A stretch of 6,268 nucleotides of DNA from positions 1-6,268 of the forward strand of contig JACQWU010000286.1 of assembly GCA_016209155.1 (NCBI GenBank), in the 5' to 3' direction. This stretch comes from Candidatus Desantisiibacteriota bacterium. GTDB lineage: Bacteria > JACRDZ01. Shown here piece by piece: positions 1 to 6,268 of the stretch. A model generated the notes under the pieces. The model did not search any database. It was not told the DNA's origin and saw only the letters and a program-made list of their open reading frames with translations. The translations under genes and the position numbers were made by a program. Position 1 is the first letter of the stretch; every line of letters begins with the position of its first letter.

Positions 1-1585
1 AAGGAACTGCACAATTAAAATCACTATAATTTATTGATGCCTCTGATGCAGGTGATTTTGTGAATGATACAGTTGAATCCCATATTATTACATTCCGAAT
101 TCTTAATCTGGTATTATCATTAATTAAAAAATTTAACCTTTCTGCGGGTGGAACATTTGAATAAAATGTCGAGGACTCAATATTTATCCGGCTGTATAAA
201 TCTGACTTTATTGCTGTATTTATATTATTATTAAAAATTGATCTTTCAATTAACAATGAACTGCTTATTTCGTTAAAAAATTCATATAATGTATTACATG
301 TTATAAGAGCGCTTGCGGAATTATTTGAAAAAACATTCCCATTAATTATATTTTTAAATTCTTCCCATGTATTATCACCTAAAAAATTAATTAATGAATC
401 ATTTTGATTATTATTATTAAAACTACAATCTTTTATTAAATTTCTAAGTTCCGACCATCCGCTGTAATTTATGTATATTAATGTTCCATTATTACTATTA
501 TTATTAAAATTAATTTTATAAAGATTTAGTGAAGAAAATAAGTCTTTATAAATCACAGCTTCATTATTATTACAATTATCAAAATCTATATTTTTTAATA
601 ATAATTTTACATTATTTCCTGTTGATATTACTCTGCCGGTTTTATTTTCACCGTTTCTTTCGATTCTAAAATTTTCTATCAAACAGGTATTTTGTGATGC
701 CCAGTCTTCAATGATGCTGATAATATTTGTTTGAGGCTGTGTTCCTACAATTATCGGCTTATTTACCTCTGACTCACCCATTAATCTAACCCCATATGGC
801 AGAGTGAGATTTTCCGTATAAACACCGCTTGATACTATTACTACTTTTGTCTGAGTCATTTTAGCTGCATCAATAGCTTCCTGTATAGTTGCATAATTTT
901 GAGGTACTCTGACTGCATCGTTTAATGAAAAATAATAAACTCCTATATCCTTTCTTGTTCCATCAGGGTCAGTAGTATCATATGGATCTCCGGCATTTAT
1001 ACATGGTGAAGTTGAAGATGGCTTAACTTGCGTTTCCCAATCAAAATTTTCATAATCCCATATAATGCCCTCTCCTGTTCCTTTATAACCTACCGGTACT
1101 AATGAATAAGAAACATTTAAATTATATAAATATCCAATTTCTCTATCCATTCCTCCCATATTTCCGCGGGCTACAATAGAATTCTTCATACTTCCTTTTA
1201 CAGGATTTGGGAATAATCCACCTATTTCTATCATCATAGGATTTTTGAAGGTGCAATTGTTAAATGATAATAAAGGGGTATTTATTCCTATAATTTGTGT
1301 CCCGAATAAGCAGTATTTAAACTCTCCGGCATAACCTCCACTGTCATCAGCATTAATTTCTATCCCGACAGGTATATCCCAATCAGGTGCTATCGGCATA
1401 AATTGTATAGGTTTATCTATGGTGCCTAATGCTTTTATTTTTGCACCCGGAGAAATAATAACTTTATTATTCATGCCAAATTCCCATGTGTTTTTTATCT
1501 TTTCCCCGGGATTAATGAGTAATGTTTTTCCGCTTTCAACTATTAAATCTTTATTAAAGTATATTTTCCATCCGGTAAAATCATA
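1..1585 (-). pseudogene. Right-handed beta-helix (pectin-lyase-like) region, detached C-terminal part of the protease gene; continues past left edge
   Basis: This frame is open for 528 codons from the stop at 1588-1586 to the left edge. It is offset from the protease frame and was checked codon by codon with no stop found. There is no credible start: the first ATG is at 1474, inside a conserved motif, with no Shine-Dalgarno. A first beta-helix section starts DLIVESGKTLLINPG (1549-1505) and has ISPGAKIKALGTIDKPIQF (ending 1400), the standard opening of secreted beta-helix repeats. SPCINAGDP (1009-983) and DPDGTRKDIGVYYF (970-929) form the usual closing motif of such a module. A second helix begins VRVPQNYATIQEAIDAA (from 913), then VSSGVYTENLTLPYGVRLMGE, as in DUF1565/pectinesterase-like proteins. 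It continues with Asn-rich rungs to the edge. No catalytic function can be assigned; such domains usually bind or display carbohydrate, or act as passive stalks. It is called a broken gene part because translation needs a -1 shift from the upstream frame. If the break is a sequencing error, it is simply the C-terminal part of one CDS. Confidence 0.85.
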
Positions 1586-4500
1586 TTATCCGCTTCGATA
1601 ATAAAATCATTTATATCTAAAATACTAATGTTTTTTATTTCCAAATAAATATATATAGTTTTTACTACTTTATTTTGCGCACTTTCATTTAAAATATCAA
1701 AACTAAACCAGTAATATCCTTCTGTAAGACTATCCACATTAAGGAATCCCACATTAAGTTGTGTATTGGTATTTCCAGTAAGCGCAGAAAAATTTATGTG
1801 CGATGTTAATGATACGTCACTATAATTAATATTACTTATTTTCCAGACAGCGTTATTTGTTGAATATATTGAAATTGCCGCATCCTCTACAATACCTGTT
1901 TGATCAGCCAGATTATATTTTCGATTAAAATAACTTTCACCGGGGACATAAATCAAGGGAGAATTTACGCTATAATTGCCTGTGCGCTTCTCATCATGCG
2001 CTGTTATCGGCCATTCCATATACTCGGGATTATAATTCGTTCCAAGATCCCAGATATATATTCTACCATCTATAGATCCTGTAATAACTTCAATTTTTCC
2101 GTCATTATCCAGATCATCTAAAGTCGGACTGCTCCAATTATCACCTAATGTTATCTTTGGCCAGTTAGTTAAAATTTGTCCATTTCTATTTATTGCGAAA
2201 ATTTTACTACGCTTTGTTACAATCCCTGATACACCTGCAAAAACTATATCGCTATATCCATCTCCATCAATATCTCCAATAACACAACCGGCATCATAAA
2301 TATGAGTATTTATATTGCTATCATGCCAAAGCTCTTTACTTATAAGTCTTATATCCGGATTATAACCACTATAAGCTACAAGACTGTCTGTCTCGCCAAG
2401 AATAATATCCGGATATCCATCACCATTAATATCTCCTATTGCAGGTGGAGAAATAATATTTGACCAACCCGGATATGATGAATTTAATGTTTTATAACAT
2501 GTCCCATCCGCTCTAAACAAATAGATAGAGCTTCCCAGTTCATTAGTATGATATGTGGCAATAATTTCACTTATTCCATCATTATCTAAATCAGCAATGC
2601 ATGCAGATTCTGGATAAAAATTATCAGCATCATAATATGATTGAACAGGCTGTATCCATTTAACGTAAGGATATGGACCTGTACTATCATTATTAAAATT
2701 ATATACCGCAATCCAATCAATACTATTAGAATATATCTCACTTTGCTGAAAAGGGACAACAATTTCAATATTTCCATCGTTATCAATATCATAACAAGCT
2801 GCACTTGCACCGCTAGCATAATGTGAATAATTATTTTGTATGTAATACTGATAACTATCATCATAAGGATTAAGTTTTTCACGCAAAATAAAACCATCAT
2901 TTCTTAATACAGCTACTCTGGCATCAACAGATACAGCAACAATTTCAAGCAATCCGTCTCCATTTAAATCACACAGTGTTGGGGCCGGGACATTTACATA
3001 TCCGCCAAAACCTATTCCTCCAGTATGATAGGTTACCGGCCAATTTTGTCCTGTAATAGGTTGTCCATTTGCATAAAAAGCATATACTTTAGGTACATTA
3101 AAATCTAAACAATTCACAAGTATTTCCAATCCGGGTACTGATGGGTCTATATCTCCCACTGATGGACTTGAGATATAAAAATAAAGATCATTTCCAAGAA
3201 ATTGCGGCCATCCATTTTTGATCGTTCCATCCTTTTCATAAACATATATATATCTATCCTTTGTTGTTAGTATTATATCTTTACTCCCATCAAGATCAAT
3301 ATCCTGAACTATTATTGAACTTGATAATGGAGATCTTCTACCAGTAGCACTATTTATGACTTGCTTCGGCCAGCCAGGCTGGAAGCTGTTATCAACAATA
3401 ACCTGAGTAACAAAATCTGAATCTGAATTTGTGCTCAACCTTATATTATAATCACCATCCTGTACCTGACTTAAATCCCATGTTGCCAATACTCCATTTA
3501 AAATTTCACCGGAACCGGATGCTATTAATTGCCATGATCCTGTATCTGACAAACGGTCTCTATATTCAAGTTTATAATTATTACTGCTTCCGTTTCTGTT
3601 ATATGTTGTTCCAATAATCGAAATCTGCCCTTTTAACATCATCTCAGCTTCAGGAGAAGAAATAACACTTATAGAAGGTACGGTATTTGTTTGCATTGCT
3701 CTTAAGACATTTATTCTTTTAAAAAAAGAAGTTGTTTTTCCACCCTTATCATCAACAGAATGTCGTAATATCTGTCTTATTTCTTCACTACCAATATCAA
3801 TATTTAAGTCATCAAAATGTGATATTATTAAACCTGCTGCACCGGCAATAAATGGTGATGACATAGAAGTACCGCTATAATAAGCATATTGATTATCCGG
3901 AATAGTACTATAGATACTGTCTCCCGGAGCAGAGACATCAACCAAACCTCCAAAATTAGAAAAATTTGCTATTTTATCATCTATTTCTTGTGTTGCTGCA
4001 ACAGAAATAACATTTGGATACCCTGCAGGATAAGATGGTACAAAAGTTAACCCGTTCCCAGCACTGGCAATTAAAACTACTCCCTGACTATATGCGTAAT
4101 CTAATACATCTTTTAATACTTGATTATATGAGGATGATCCAAAACTCATATTAATAACATCTGCTCCAGCATCTGCCGCATATTGAATTGCATTTACGAT
4201 ATCATCGGTTTCTAATAATCCTCCGACATTACCATATACTTTCATTGCAAATCCGGCTCTTACCGGCATAATTTTTGCTTTAGGACATACTCCTGCTATA
4301 CCTTTATTATTATCAGCAACAGCGGCAGCTATTCCGGCAACATGTGTACCATGGCCTACTTTGTCATCGGGATTATTATCTGTAGTTTCATAATCTTCAC
4401 CGGAAACTAATTGATAATTAAGATTTTCAATATATGATGCGGTGTCAATATCTACAAAATCGTAACCTCTAATATCATCTATGAGGGTGTTTGAATCATC

Positions 4501-5373
4501 ATCGATACCATTAAGAGTTTCTCCTGGATTTTGCCATATATTTGCCGCAAGATCCTCATGGTCCCAATCTACTCCTGTATCTATTACAGCAATTACAGGC
4601 ATGTAATTACCCATCTCTATATCCCATGCTCCTTCTACATTACTGTATCCCGGCTTCCAACCCCATTGTGTACTATCATAATACGGATCATTCGGAATGT
4701 AATTAATTTCAAATATATAATTTGGTTCAACACTTTCAAATATTGGATCTTTTTTATAATTTTCTAATGCTTTTTCCGTATCCACTTTATTATCAAAAGT
4801 TATTTTGTAAAAATTTTCGAGTTTAGGGACTTCAATATTTTTCTTATTTGCCATTGCACGTTTTTTTGCAAAATTATTTATTGTTTTTTCTGTTTTAGTT
4901 TTATTTTTGAATAACGGCTGTATTTTCTTTATTGTATATTTATTGTTTTGTGTAATAGCTGCGAACATTTCCTGATTGTTAGTTTTTAAATTTTCCAAAT
5001 CAATATTTTGATTTTGATTATTTAAACTCATATTTTTTGATATCAAATCTGATTTTTGTTCACTGATTTTAACAATAATTTCATTCGGGACGTATTTTAG
5101 TCTTTCATTGTTTTTCTGATTATTTTCATTGTTATTTGTATCATGGATTTTATTCTGGATATTCCGCTCTACTAATTCCTGCCTATTATTATCCGGATCT
5201 GATTTTGTTTGAGTTGTTATTTGAGTGGAAATTGCGGTGATATAGCCATTCCGGTTATTATTGTCAATTAATTCCCCAATAATATTTTTTGTGACTGAAC
5301 TGCAAAATAAAATAAAAATCATTAAACAAAAAATAAATCGACATACTTTTATTGAATTTTTATTCTTTCTCAT
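1543..5373 (-). CDS. Secreted S8 (subtilisin-like) serine peptidase with FG-GAP/VCBS propeller; likely truncated by frameshift
   Basis: A 1276-codon exported endopeptidase. Start ATG 5373 is fixed by a perfect AGGAGG 8 nt upstream. Residues 1-28 are a basic n-region and hydrophobic core (signal peptide or anchor). Residues 35-92 are Asn/Gln-rich. About 93-230 is a prodomain: it opens with YVPNEIIVKI, has a Lys/Asn-rich insert at about 104-180, and closes with DPIFESVEPNYI. The S8 domain (about 235-560) has Asp265 (AVIDTGVD), His341 (GHGTHVAG), oxyanion Asn440 (SAGN) and Ser503 (GTSMSSP), so it should be active. NGIDDDSNTLIDD (288-300) resembles a calcium loop. An Ig-like domain follows (about 565-662), then eight FG-GAP/VCBS Asp loops (691-1100) ending in WPITAHDEKRTGNY, and a BACON-like Ig-fold stretch (about 1140-1250). 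The end ILPDGKYTLIKI-stop interrupts a beta-helix entry motif that continues one base out of frame (see 1-1585), so the native protein is probably longer. Expected location is the cell surface or medium. The substrate is unknown. Confidence 0.93.
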   Translation of the reverse strand: MRKNKNSIKVCRFIFCLMIFILFCSSVTKNIIGELIDNNNRNGYITAISTQITTQTKSDPDNNRQELVERNIQNKIHDTNNNENNQKNNERLKYVPNEIIVKISEQKSDLISKNMSLNNQNQNIDLENLKTNNQEMFAAITQNNKYTIKKIQPLFKNKTKTEKTINNFAKKRAMANKKNIEVPKLENFYKITFDNKVDTEKALENYKKDPIFESVEPNYIFEINYIPNDPYYDSTQWGWKPGYSNVEGAWDIEMGNYMPVIAVIDTGVDWDHEDLAANIWQNPGETLNGIDDDSNTLIDDIRGYDFVDIDTASYIENLNYQLVSGEDYETTDNNPDDKVGHGTHVAGIAAAVADNNKGIAGVCPKAKIMPVRAGFAMKVYGNVGGLLETDDIVNAIQYAADAGADVINMSFGSSSYNQVLKDVLDYAYSQGVVLIASAGNGLTFVPSYPAGYPNVISVAATQEIDDKIANFSNFGGLVDVSAPGDSIYSTIPDNQYAYYSGTSMSSPFIAGAAGLIISHFDDLNIDIGSEEIRQILRHSVDDKGGKTTSFFKRINVLRAMQTNTVPSISVISSPEAEMMLKGQISIIGTTYNRNGSSNNYKLEYRDRLSDTGSWQLIASGSGEILNGVLATWDLSQVQDGDYNIRLSTNSDSDFVTQVIVDNSFQPGWPKQVINSATGRRSPLSSSIIVQDIDLDGSKDIILTTKDRYIYVYEKDGTIKNGWPQFLGNDLYFYISSPSVGDIDPSVPGLEILVNCLDFNVPKVYAFYANGQPITGQNWPVTYHTGGIGFGGYVNVPAPTLCDLNGDGLLEIVAVSVDARVAVLRNDGFILREKLNPYDDSYQYYIQNNYSHYASGASAACYDIDNDGNIEIVVPFQQSEIYSNSIDWIAVYNFNNDSTGPYPYVKWIQPVQSYYDADNFYPESACIADLDNDGISEIIATYHTNELGSSIYLFRADGTCYKTLNSSYPGWSNIISPPAIGDINGDGYPDIILGETDSLVAYSGYNPDIRLISKELWHDSNINTHIYDAGCVIGDIDGDGYSDIVFAGVSGIVTKRSKIFAINRNGQILTNWPKITLGDNWSSPTLDDLDNDGKIEVITGSIDGRIYIWDLGTNYNPEYMEWPITAHDEKRTGNYSVNSPLIYVPGESYFNRKYNLADQTGIVEDAAISIYSTNNAVWKISNINYSDVSLTSHINFSALTGNTNTQLNVGFLNVDSLTEGYYWFSFDILNESAQNKVVKTIYIYLEIKNISILDINDFIIEADNMILPDGKYTLIKI
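1546..1585 (-). other. Frameshift junction between protease frame and beta-helix frame
   Basis: Both frames are open together only in this 40-base stretch, so any shift must fall here. The protease frame reads DGKYTLIKI and then stops (TAA 1545-1543, followed directly by TAG). If the G at 1549 is read twice, or one A is added to the AAA at 1552-1550, the reading becomes TLIKDLIVESGKTLLINPG. This agrees with the usual beta-helix entry pattern (Y-x-L-x-x-D-L-x-V-x-x-G-x-T-L-x-I-x-P-G). The local codons are UUA AUA AAG, which is not a canonical X-XXY-YYZ slippery heptamer. Confidence 0.8.
2074..3303 (-). repeat. Eight FG-GAP/VCBS-type Asp-rich repeats (predicted beta-propeller)
   Basis: The protein repeat D-[ILN]-[DN]-x-D-G-x-x-[DE]-I occurs at residues 691, 741, 802, 862, 928, 981, 1034 and 1087 of the protease. 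The copies include DIDLDGSKDIIL, DLNGDGLLEIVA, DIDNDGNIEIVV, DINGDGYPDIIL and DLDNDGKIEVIT. The second copy (DIDPSVPGLEILV) has lost the central Asp-Gly. The last four are spaced exactly 53 residues apart and the earlier ones 50-66. In this family the Asp loop binds calcium and each repeat forms a blade of an integrin-like propeller. Trp-Pro motifs (GWPKQV, GWPQFL, NWPVTY, NWPKIT) recur between the loops. The repeats are diverged at DNA level. Confidence 0.88.
3694..4605 (-). other. Subtilisin (S8) catalytic domain within the protease gene
   Basis: These are the residues 257-560 of the protease. All three catalytic motifs are present in the family order Asp-His-Ser: Asp265 codon at 4581-4579, His341 at 4353-4351, Ser503 at 3867-3865, with the oxyanion-hole Asn440 at 4056-4054. 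The Asp-to-His spacing of 76 residues is longer than in classical subtilisins because of the Asp-rich NGIDDDSN loop and a further insert, a feature known from large secreted S8 proteases with a calcium site. No catalytic residue is missing. Confidence 0.95.
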
Positions 5374-5381
5374 GCTCCTCT

Positions 5382-5387
5382 CCTCCT
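5382..5387 (-). promoter_or_regulatory. Shine-Dalgarno of the protease gene
   Basis: On the minus strand AGGAGG ends 8 nt before the ATG at 5373, an ideal spacing, which fixes this start. A second GGAG lies closer to the ATG (about 5375-5378) and another AAGGAG further upstream (about 5398-5403), so the leader is purine-rich throughout. This suggests efficient translation initiation. Confidence 0.92.
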
Positions 5388-5417
5388 TTTAATTTTCTCC
5401 TTTGGTTTGACAAGAAT

Positions 5418-5423
5418 AGTATA
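5418..5423 (-). promoter_or_regulatory. Predicted -10 element of the protease promoter
   Basis: On the minus strand TATACT matches the sigma-70 consensus at five of six positions. It predicts transcription starting near 5411 and a leader of about 38 nt. At the -35 position with a 17-bp spacer (5441-5446) the sequence is ATATTA, a poor match, as expected for a promoter that depends on an activator. The start site is inferred, not observed. Confidence 0.5.
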
Positions 5424-5443
5424 ACCACTTTAATCTTAATTAA

Positions 5444-5459
5444 TATGATCTATATCACA
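5444..5459. promoter_or_regulatory. CRP/FNR-family binding site, promoter-proximal
   Basis: The plus strand reads TATGATCTATATCACA, nine of ten matches to TGTGA-N6-TCACA. Its core TGAT-N4-ATCA also resembles an FNR box. The centre at 5451.5 is about -40.5 relative to the start predicted from the -10 element, close to the class II activator position (-41.5) where CRP/FNR proteins overlap and replace the -35 element. The regulator encoded immediately upstream is the natural candidate ligand. Confidence 0.75.
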
Positions 5460-5465
5460 AAAAAA

Positions 5466-5481
5466 TGTGATATAAATCACA
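5466..5481. promoter_or_regulatory. CRP-type binding site, perfect consensus, upstream
   Basis: The plus strand reads TGTGATATAAATCACA, a ten-of-ten match to the E. coli CRP consensus TGTGA-N6-TCACA. The centre at 5473.5 is 22 bp (two helical turns) upstream of the other site and about -62.5 relative to the predicted start, close to the class I activator position. With the proximal site this gives a tandem, helically phased arrangement on one DNA face. Confidence 0.82.
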
Positions 5482-5598
5482 AATAAATTCAAATATTTTT
5501 GTTCTAAAATGAAAAAAGTCAGAATGTAATGATATGGAATTAAATTGTTTTAACGCATTTAATGAAGACTTGTTAGAGGTACATTAATGAGGAAACTT

Positions 5599-6268
5599 CT
5601 ATATATTTTTAAATATTTCTCTTATAAGCATAGCTTTATCTAAAATAATAATCTTTTTATTTTCTATTTTAATACAACCGCTTTTTTTAAATTCATTTAG
5701 AGCTCTTATTGCTGTTTCTCTTGTTAAACCCGCGAGATTCGCAATTTCCTGACGTCCAAGATTTAGATTAACCACATTTTTTTCTTCTCTAATACCATTT
5801 TCTTCAGCAATATCTAAAATGACTTTCGCTATTTTGCCATACGAATCTGCAAATCTAAGTATTTTTATTTTTTCATCTGTTCGCCGGATTCTTTTGCTTA
5901 ATAGCGCTAACATATTAAGTGAAATCTCGGGATAAATTTTTAATAGATTTAAAAATTGACTTTTTTCAATAACAAGCGTAATTGTTTTTTCCAGTGCAGT
6001 TACAGTCGCGGATCTTTTTTCTCCATCCAGCAAAGACATTTCTCCAAAAAAATCAAAAGGATGAATTATTTGCAGTATATCTTCTTTCCCGTTTTTATCA
6101 CATATAGTTATTTTCACAGAACCTGATATTAGAATAAACAAAGAGCCTCCCGGTTCATCAGCGTAAAATATGACTTCATTTTTTCTATATGTTCTTTCCA
6201 TACTGATTTCAAAAATTTTTTCGAGATTATTGCTGGAAAGACCTGAAAATAATATTATTTTTTTTAAA
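5599..6268 (-). CDS. Crp/Fnr-family transcriptional regulator, 5' end outside window
   Basis: This is a cyclic-nucleotide-type sensor fused to a DNA-binding winged helix. The frame is open from 5599 (TAG stop) to the right edge. The codons before the Met at 6201 read LKKIILFSGLSSNNLEKIF, the canonical Crp/Fnr N-terminus, so that Met is internal and the true start lies just beyond 6268. Counting from the Met at 6201: the beta-roll includes SLFILISGSVKI (20-31) and the phosphate-binding cassette FGEMS (52-56) plus RSATV (63-67), matching E. coli CRP Gly71-Glu72 and Arg82-Ser83. The long C-helix follows (about 90-115), with T108 at the position of CRP Thr127 and D109 at Ser128. The helix-turn-helix spans about 149-170, with RQEIANLAG then TRETAIRAL. 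R161, E162 and R166 align with CRP Arg180, Glu181 and Arg185, the TGTGA-reading residues. No FNR-type cysteine cluster is visible, which argues against an oxygen-sensing FNR. Ligand is unknown; cAMP is possible. It lies upstream of, and in the same orientation as, the protease gene. Confidence 0.93.
   Translation of the reverse strand, partial: LKKIILFSGLSSNNLEKIFEISMERTYRKNEVIFYADEPGGSLFILISGSVKITICDKNGKEDILQIIHPFDFFGEMSLLDGEKRSATVTALEKTITLVIEKSQFLNLLKIYPEISLNMLALLSKRIRRTDEKIKILRFADSYGKIAKVILDIAEENGIREEKNVVNLNLGRQEIANLAGLTRETAIRALNEFKKSGCIKIENKKIIILDKAMLIREIFKNI

Follow-up and report, generated by a model that had tools for sequence, protein, structure and literature searches.

Introduction

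The closest described systems are those of Escherichia coli and Mycobacterium tuberculosis CRP. In E. coli CRP, Arg180, Glu181 and Arg185 contact G2, C4 and G4 of TGTGA (PMC11253593). M. tuberculosis CRP (Rv3676) is a global regulator with 191 mapped sites, and its whiB1 promoter carries tandem CRP sites, one activating and one inhibitory (PMC4117774). In Deinococcus, DdrI recognizes DNA of the TGTGA type even without cAMP.

In this study, we analyzed a stretch of 6,268 nucleotides (the window) from a Candidatus Desantisiibacteriota bacterium (assembly GCA_016209155.1, contig JACQWU010000286.1, positions 1 to 6,268). An initial annotation had proposed that tandem CRP-type operators next to a CRP-like regulator gene form a local circuit controlling an exported protease. 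We consider it likely that the neighboring regulator activates the protease promoter through these operators in a nearly private circuit. The kind of system is well known, and the interpretation is supported by the sequence, though unproven. What is new, as far as sequences indicate, is the comparative layout beside the sister of this regulator and beside gemmatimonadotal regulators.

Results

Paired operators between the regulator and protease genes

On the minus strand of the window, a Crp/Fnr-type regulator gene is followed, after a 225-bp gap, by a co-directional S8 protease gene. The gene order agrees with the initial annotation, in which a CRP-like regulator gene lay next to the operators. 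The features are as follows:

5599-6267, minus strand: Crp/Fnr-type regulator of 222 aa with the recognition helix RETAIR, 5' end truncated by the contig end
5466-5481, strand not assigned: distal operator, perfect TGTGA-N6-TCACA, TGTGATATAAATCACA, centre 5473.5 at about -62.5
5444-5459, strand not assigned: proximal operator, nine of ten positions (one mismatch), TATGATCTATATCACA, centre 5451.5 at about -40.5
5418-5423, minus strand: predicted -10-like hexamer TATACT, five of six positions, from sequence
5411, minus strand: predicted transcription start, placed 7 nt past the -10, the usual distance
5376-5388, minus strand: purine-rich ribosome-binding site upstream of the protease ATG (5373), from sequence
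1543-5373, minus strand: presumed target, an exported S8 (subtilase) protease with FG-GAP repeats, from domain matches and motifs

Read along the minus strand, the two sites are TGTGATTTATATCACA (5481-5466) and TGTGATATAGATCATA (5459-5444), and the perfect half of the proximal operator points away from the promoter. We recomputed the arrangement from the sequence and obtained what had been annotated, namely a perfect TGTGA-N6-TCACA and a nine-of-ten copy with centres 22 bp apart, located near -62.5 and -40.5 relative to the predicted start, which has a good -10 and a poor -35. The -35 hexamer at 17 bp is ATATTA, which matches at two of six positions. Judged by the predicted start alone, the geometry is that of a class I/class II promoter, with one site at -40.5 over the poor -35 and another at -62.5. 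The 16-mer of the perfect site, read on the minus strand, is letter-identical to a ChIP-mapped CRP site at kpsM of enteroaggregative E. coli (PMC12360894). A search for intrinsic terminators between the regulator and protease genes was negative, so read-through from the former into the latter is possible.

This geometry bears on the direction of control. The main alternative to activation is that the window regulator reads the operators, but that its binding represses the protease or acts as a dose switch, in which the upstream site activates and the filled proximal site represses. Such an outcome would have a precedent in the tandem activating and inhibitory sites of M. tuberculosis whiB1 (PMC4117774), and M. 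tuberculosis CRP also provides the nearest solved structures to the window regulator. The proximal site, being weaker, would be the last to fill. However, the poor -35 and a proximal centre at -40.5, near the classical -41.5, suit activation better, and we infer that a weaker proximal site is usual where polymerase aids binding. We consider repression or a dose switch rather unlikely, and activation by the neighboring regulator is the direction that we prefer.

To assess chance, we simulated 4 Mb under an order-3 Markov model trained on 96 kb of intergenic DNA from this genome. The simulation gave two perfect sites, 78 sites with at most one mismatch and no pairs. The product of the simulated rates put the probability of the pair at 1.1e-7 per 225 bp and at 2e-4 per about 370 kb of intergenic DNA, the perfect-site rate in both being based on two matches only. 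An equally good -10 inside the 5-position slot had a probability of about 0.06 in the same intergenic DNA. The operator pair thus lies far beyond chance. Single-site statistics within the window alone were rejected as support, since the whole AT-rich window held four loose matches (at most two mismatches) against 2.77 expected, a non-significant difference.

The regulator protein and its probable ligand

The regulator belongs to the Crp/Fnr superfamily, with matches to PF00027 (89 bits), PF13545 (60 bits) and PF00325 (33 bits), all above cut-off. It falls outside the E. coli-type CRP equivalog NF008732 (117 bits vs a cut-off of 266). The alignment placed its recognition helix RETAIR against RETVGR of E. 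coli CRP, and the Arg-Glu-x-x-x-Arg residues that had been annotated as reading TGTGA are indeed retained. Compared with E72, R82, S83, R123, T127 and S128 of the E. coli cyclic-nucleotide pocket, only S128 is changed, to Asp. The regulator thus retains the phosphate cassette (FGE...RSA) as well as the C-helix Arg and Thr.

Class III cyclase domains were found in the same assembly, which makes cAMP plausible as the ligand, and the sequence points to the regulator as a probable cAMP sensor. The ligand may nevertheless differ or be absent, because Ser128 of the C-helix is Asp here and DdrI provides a comparable case. The window regulator is the sole HTH_Crp_2 protein above cut-off in this 79% complete assembly, from which a further CRP may be absent. 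We did not accept a second full-length regulator with a cNMP domain (C180) as reader of the sites, as it lacks RExxxR and its HTH falls below cut-off.

Genome-wide search for the palindrome

The 79% complete assembly contains four perfect TGTGA-N6-TCACA sites. Two lie inside genes of no known function, one of these genes being long; one covers the GTG start beside a RelA/SpoT-like gene; and the fourth, that of the window, is the only one at a plausible promoter. Numerous matches to TGTGA-N6-TCATA fall in coding sequence. We also compared intergenic matches at different spacers in an 867-kb sample of the genome, some contigs of which had been picked for holding sites, and found no clear excess of spacer-6 matches over other spacers in this sample. 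A first scan of the genome contigs with a single protein returned no matches.

The genome scan that had been suggested for defining the regulon therefore detected no wider regulon. A global regulon was rejected on four perfect sites (two intragenic, one on a GTG start) and the lack of an intergenic excess. The few perfect sites and the missing excess argue for a local circuit, as read from a 79% complete assembly and a sample partly chosen for sites.

The same counts weigh on two other explanations. The operators could be true CRP-type sites read by another Crp-like protein, encoded in the 20% of the genome that the assembly lacks, and the neighboring regulator would then serve elsewhere. The incomplete assembly leaves room for such a protein, and global CRPs commonly read TGTGA sites; yet a global CRP would be expected to produce a genome-wide palindrome excess, which was not found, while the neighbor has the matching residues and the palindrome also occurs at the sister regulator's own gene. 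We regard this explanation as improbable. It is more improbable still that the palindromes are functionless chance or relic sequence in AT-rich DNA. Perfect sites are indeed few genome-wide, and three of the four lie within genes or on a start codon, as such an origin would allow. Against it speak a pair with a probability of about 1e-7 per 225 bp, positions that match a -10 and the return of this layout next to related regulators.

The protease as presumed target

The Asp motif of the protease is at residue 265, the His motif at 340 and the Ser motif at 501. We found no such sites at S8 homologues elsewhere or at a 43% paralogue in the same genome, and conservation of the sites across S8 protease homologues, own paralogues included, was accordingly rejected. 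Protease control would thus be a property of this locus and not of the protease family. The annotated local circuit on an exported protease is supported. Its local character is backed by the sole HTH_Crp_2 protein above cut-off and by the lack of any other promoter-placed perfect palindrome, both in the 79% complete assembly, and by the single palindrome with a two-site layout in the sister's genome described below. The annotation had named absence of the palindrome upstream of orthologous protease genes as a refuting result, and this was observed in part, at the S8 homologues elsewhere and at the paralogue.

A separate observation concerns the end of the protease gene (1474-1600, minus strand). 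The protease frame stops at 1543, where another frame is already open and runs into the ORF at 2-1474, a continuation with beta-helix-like sequence. The protease ORF and ORF 2-1474 probably encode a single protein that a frameshift, either real or an assembly error, has divided.

Operators beside related regulators

We constructed a tree of 78 proteins, in which the sister of the window regulator was L010, from a genome of another phylum (44% identity, support 99/94). Among the matches listed, none was a full-length relative from the three other genomes of the window's phylum. In the L010 genome, TGTGA-N6-TCACA occurs in perfect form just once, overlapping the stop codon of the L010 regulator gene itself. 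A second GTGA half-site lies 23 bp further, and TATTCT puts the two at -64.5 and -41.5 of a predicted start. The gene after this regulator is convergent. The two-site promoter (L010 1280-1481, minus strand) aims at that convergent gene, and its transcript may be a small or antisense RNA.

In a mostly gemmatimonadotal clade with ten regulators (L166, L173, L174, L176, L182, L185, L191, L199, L201 and L209), the 3' end of each regulator gene holds an invariant GTGA-N6-TCAC with six varying middle bases. The palindrome overlaps or directly follows the regulator stop codon. After it come a promoter-like stretch, which is conserved, and the gene for a Lactamase_B_2 protein (metallo-beta-lactamase fold) that weakly resembles cyclic-nucleotide phosphodiesterase and RNase Z models. 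Relative to predicted starts, six of the ten loci have a TAnnnT hexamer that puts half-sites at -65.5 and -42.5, three have the palindrome itself at -41.5 or -42.5, and the last has a single site at -64.5. The gemmatimonadotal -10 hexamers are weak (TAACTT), which counts against our preferred explanation. A limited literature search found no description of this arrangement of regulator, tandem operator and metallo-hydrolase.

Around 80 homologues, spacer 6 gave 39 matches compared with 5-20 at other spacers, with related genomes counted repeatedly. In genome G049, a Crp homologue (L021) directly follows a class III cyclase gene, and the only perfect palindrome of that genome is found at a distance of 1.4 kb, flanked by divergent genes. 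The repeated layout at L010 and in the gemmatimonadotal clade indicates that the order of regulator, tandem operators and next gene recurs across phyla. Together with L021, these loci support the operator specificity and the tandem layout outside the window.

Two further observations were made among the homologues. At L063 (8232-11737), a class III cyclase gene and a Crp homologue lie within 3.5 kb together with the one perfect CRP palindrome of that genome. In Paenibacillus relatives of the regulator (L224-L227), an opposite-strand S8 protease gene, its product about 29% identical to the window protease, is located about 2.6-4.3 kb before the Crp homologue.

Discussion

The two sites, the regulator and the protease probably work together as a small on-switch that is private to this locus and belongs to a well-known kind. 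In the mechanism that we favor, the product of the neighboring gene would act as a Crp/Fnr homodimer, probably with cAMP, and occupy the perfect upstream site. A second dimer would fill the weaker proximal site, which would replace the -35. The two dimers would sit two helical turns apart on the same DNA face, and both would contact and recruit RNA polymerase, as at promoters that combine class I and class II sites. The regulator would have few or no further strong sites, leaving the circuit local and nearly private. We favor this explanation because the pair is beyond chance, a -10 lies at the matching distance and the -35 is poor. It is further favored by the regulator residues, the sole HTH_Crp_2 protein, the class III cyclases, the layouts at L010 and in the clade, and the spacer-6 enrichment.

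More tentatively, and with considerable doubt, these regulators may represent a private class of CRP, that is, cyclic-nucleotide regulators with E. coli-type specificity that have a tandem operator at or after the end of their own gene and control about one neighboring promoter, the target being swapped between lineages. If so, the target would be a secreted protease here and a metallo-hydrolase in Gemmatimonadota. The locus offers a concrete, testable set of regulator, operator and target in a phylum represented by four genomes in this analysis. It suggests that TGTGA CRP-type specificity serves local circuits as well as global ones, and that related regulators in distant phyla are repeatedly accompanied by a tandem operator module near -63/-41.

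Compared with known systems, the window shares with E. coli CRP the palindrome TGTGA-N6-TCACA, including the 16-mer of the kpsM site (PMC12360894), and the contact residues R-E-x-x-x-R, and its promoter resembles E. coli class I/class II promoters in having one site over the -35 plus one upstream. It differs from E. coli CRP in that the regulator is not the equivalog (117 vs 266 bits), Ser128 is Asp, the circuit appears local rather than global, and the two sites are just 22 bp apart. M. tuberculosis CRP provides the closest solved structures and likewise has tandem sites at one promoter, whiB1 (PMC4117774). In contrast to the window circuit, it acts globally, one of its whiB1 sites is inhibitory, and whiB1 is not adjacent to the regulator gene. 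The gemmatimonadotal Crp-like loci share the order of regulator gene, GTGA-N6-TCAC and next gene, several having a GTGA half-site 23 bp on (about -65.5/-42.5), whereas their operator overlaps the regulator stop codon, their target is Lactamase_B_2 and their regulators form a separate clade.
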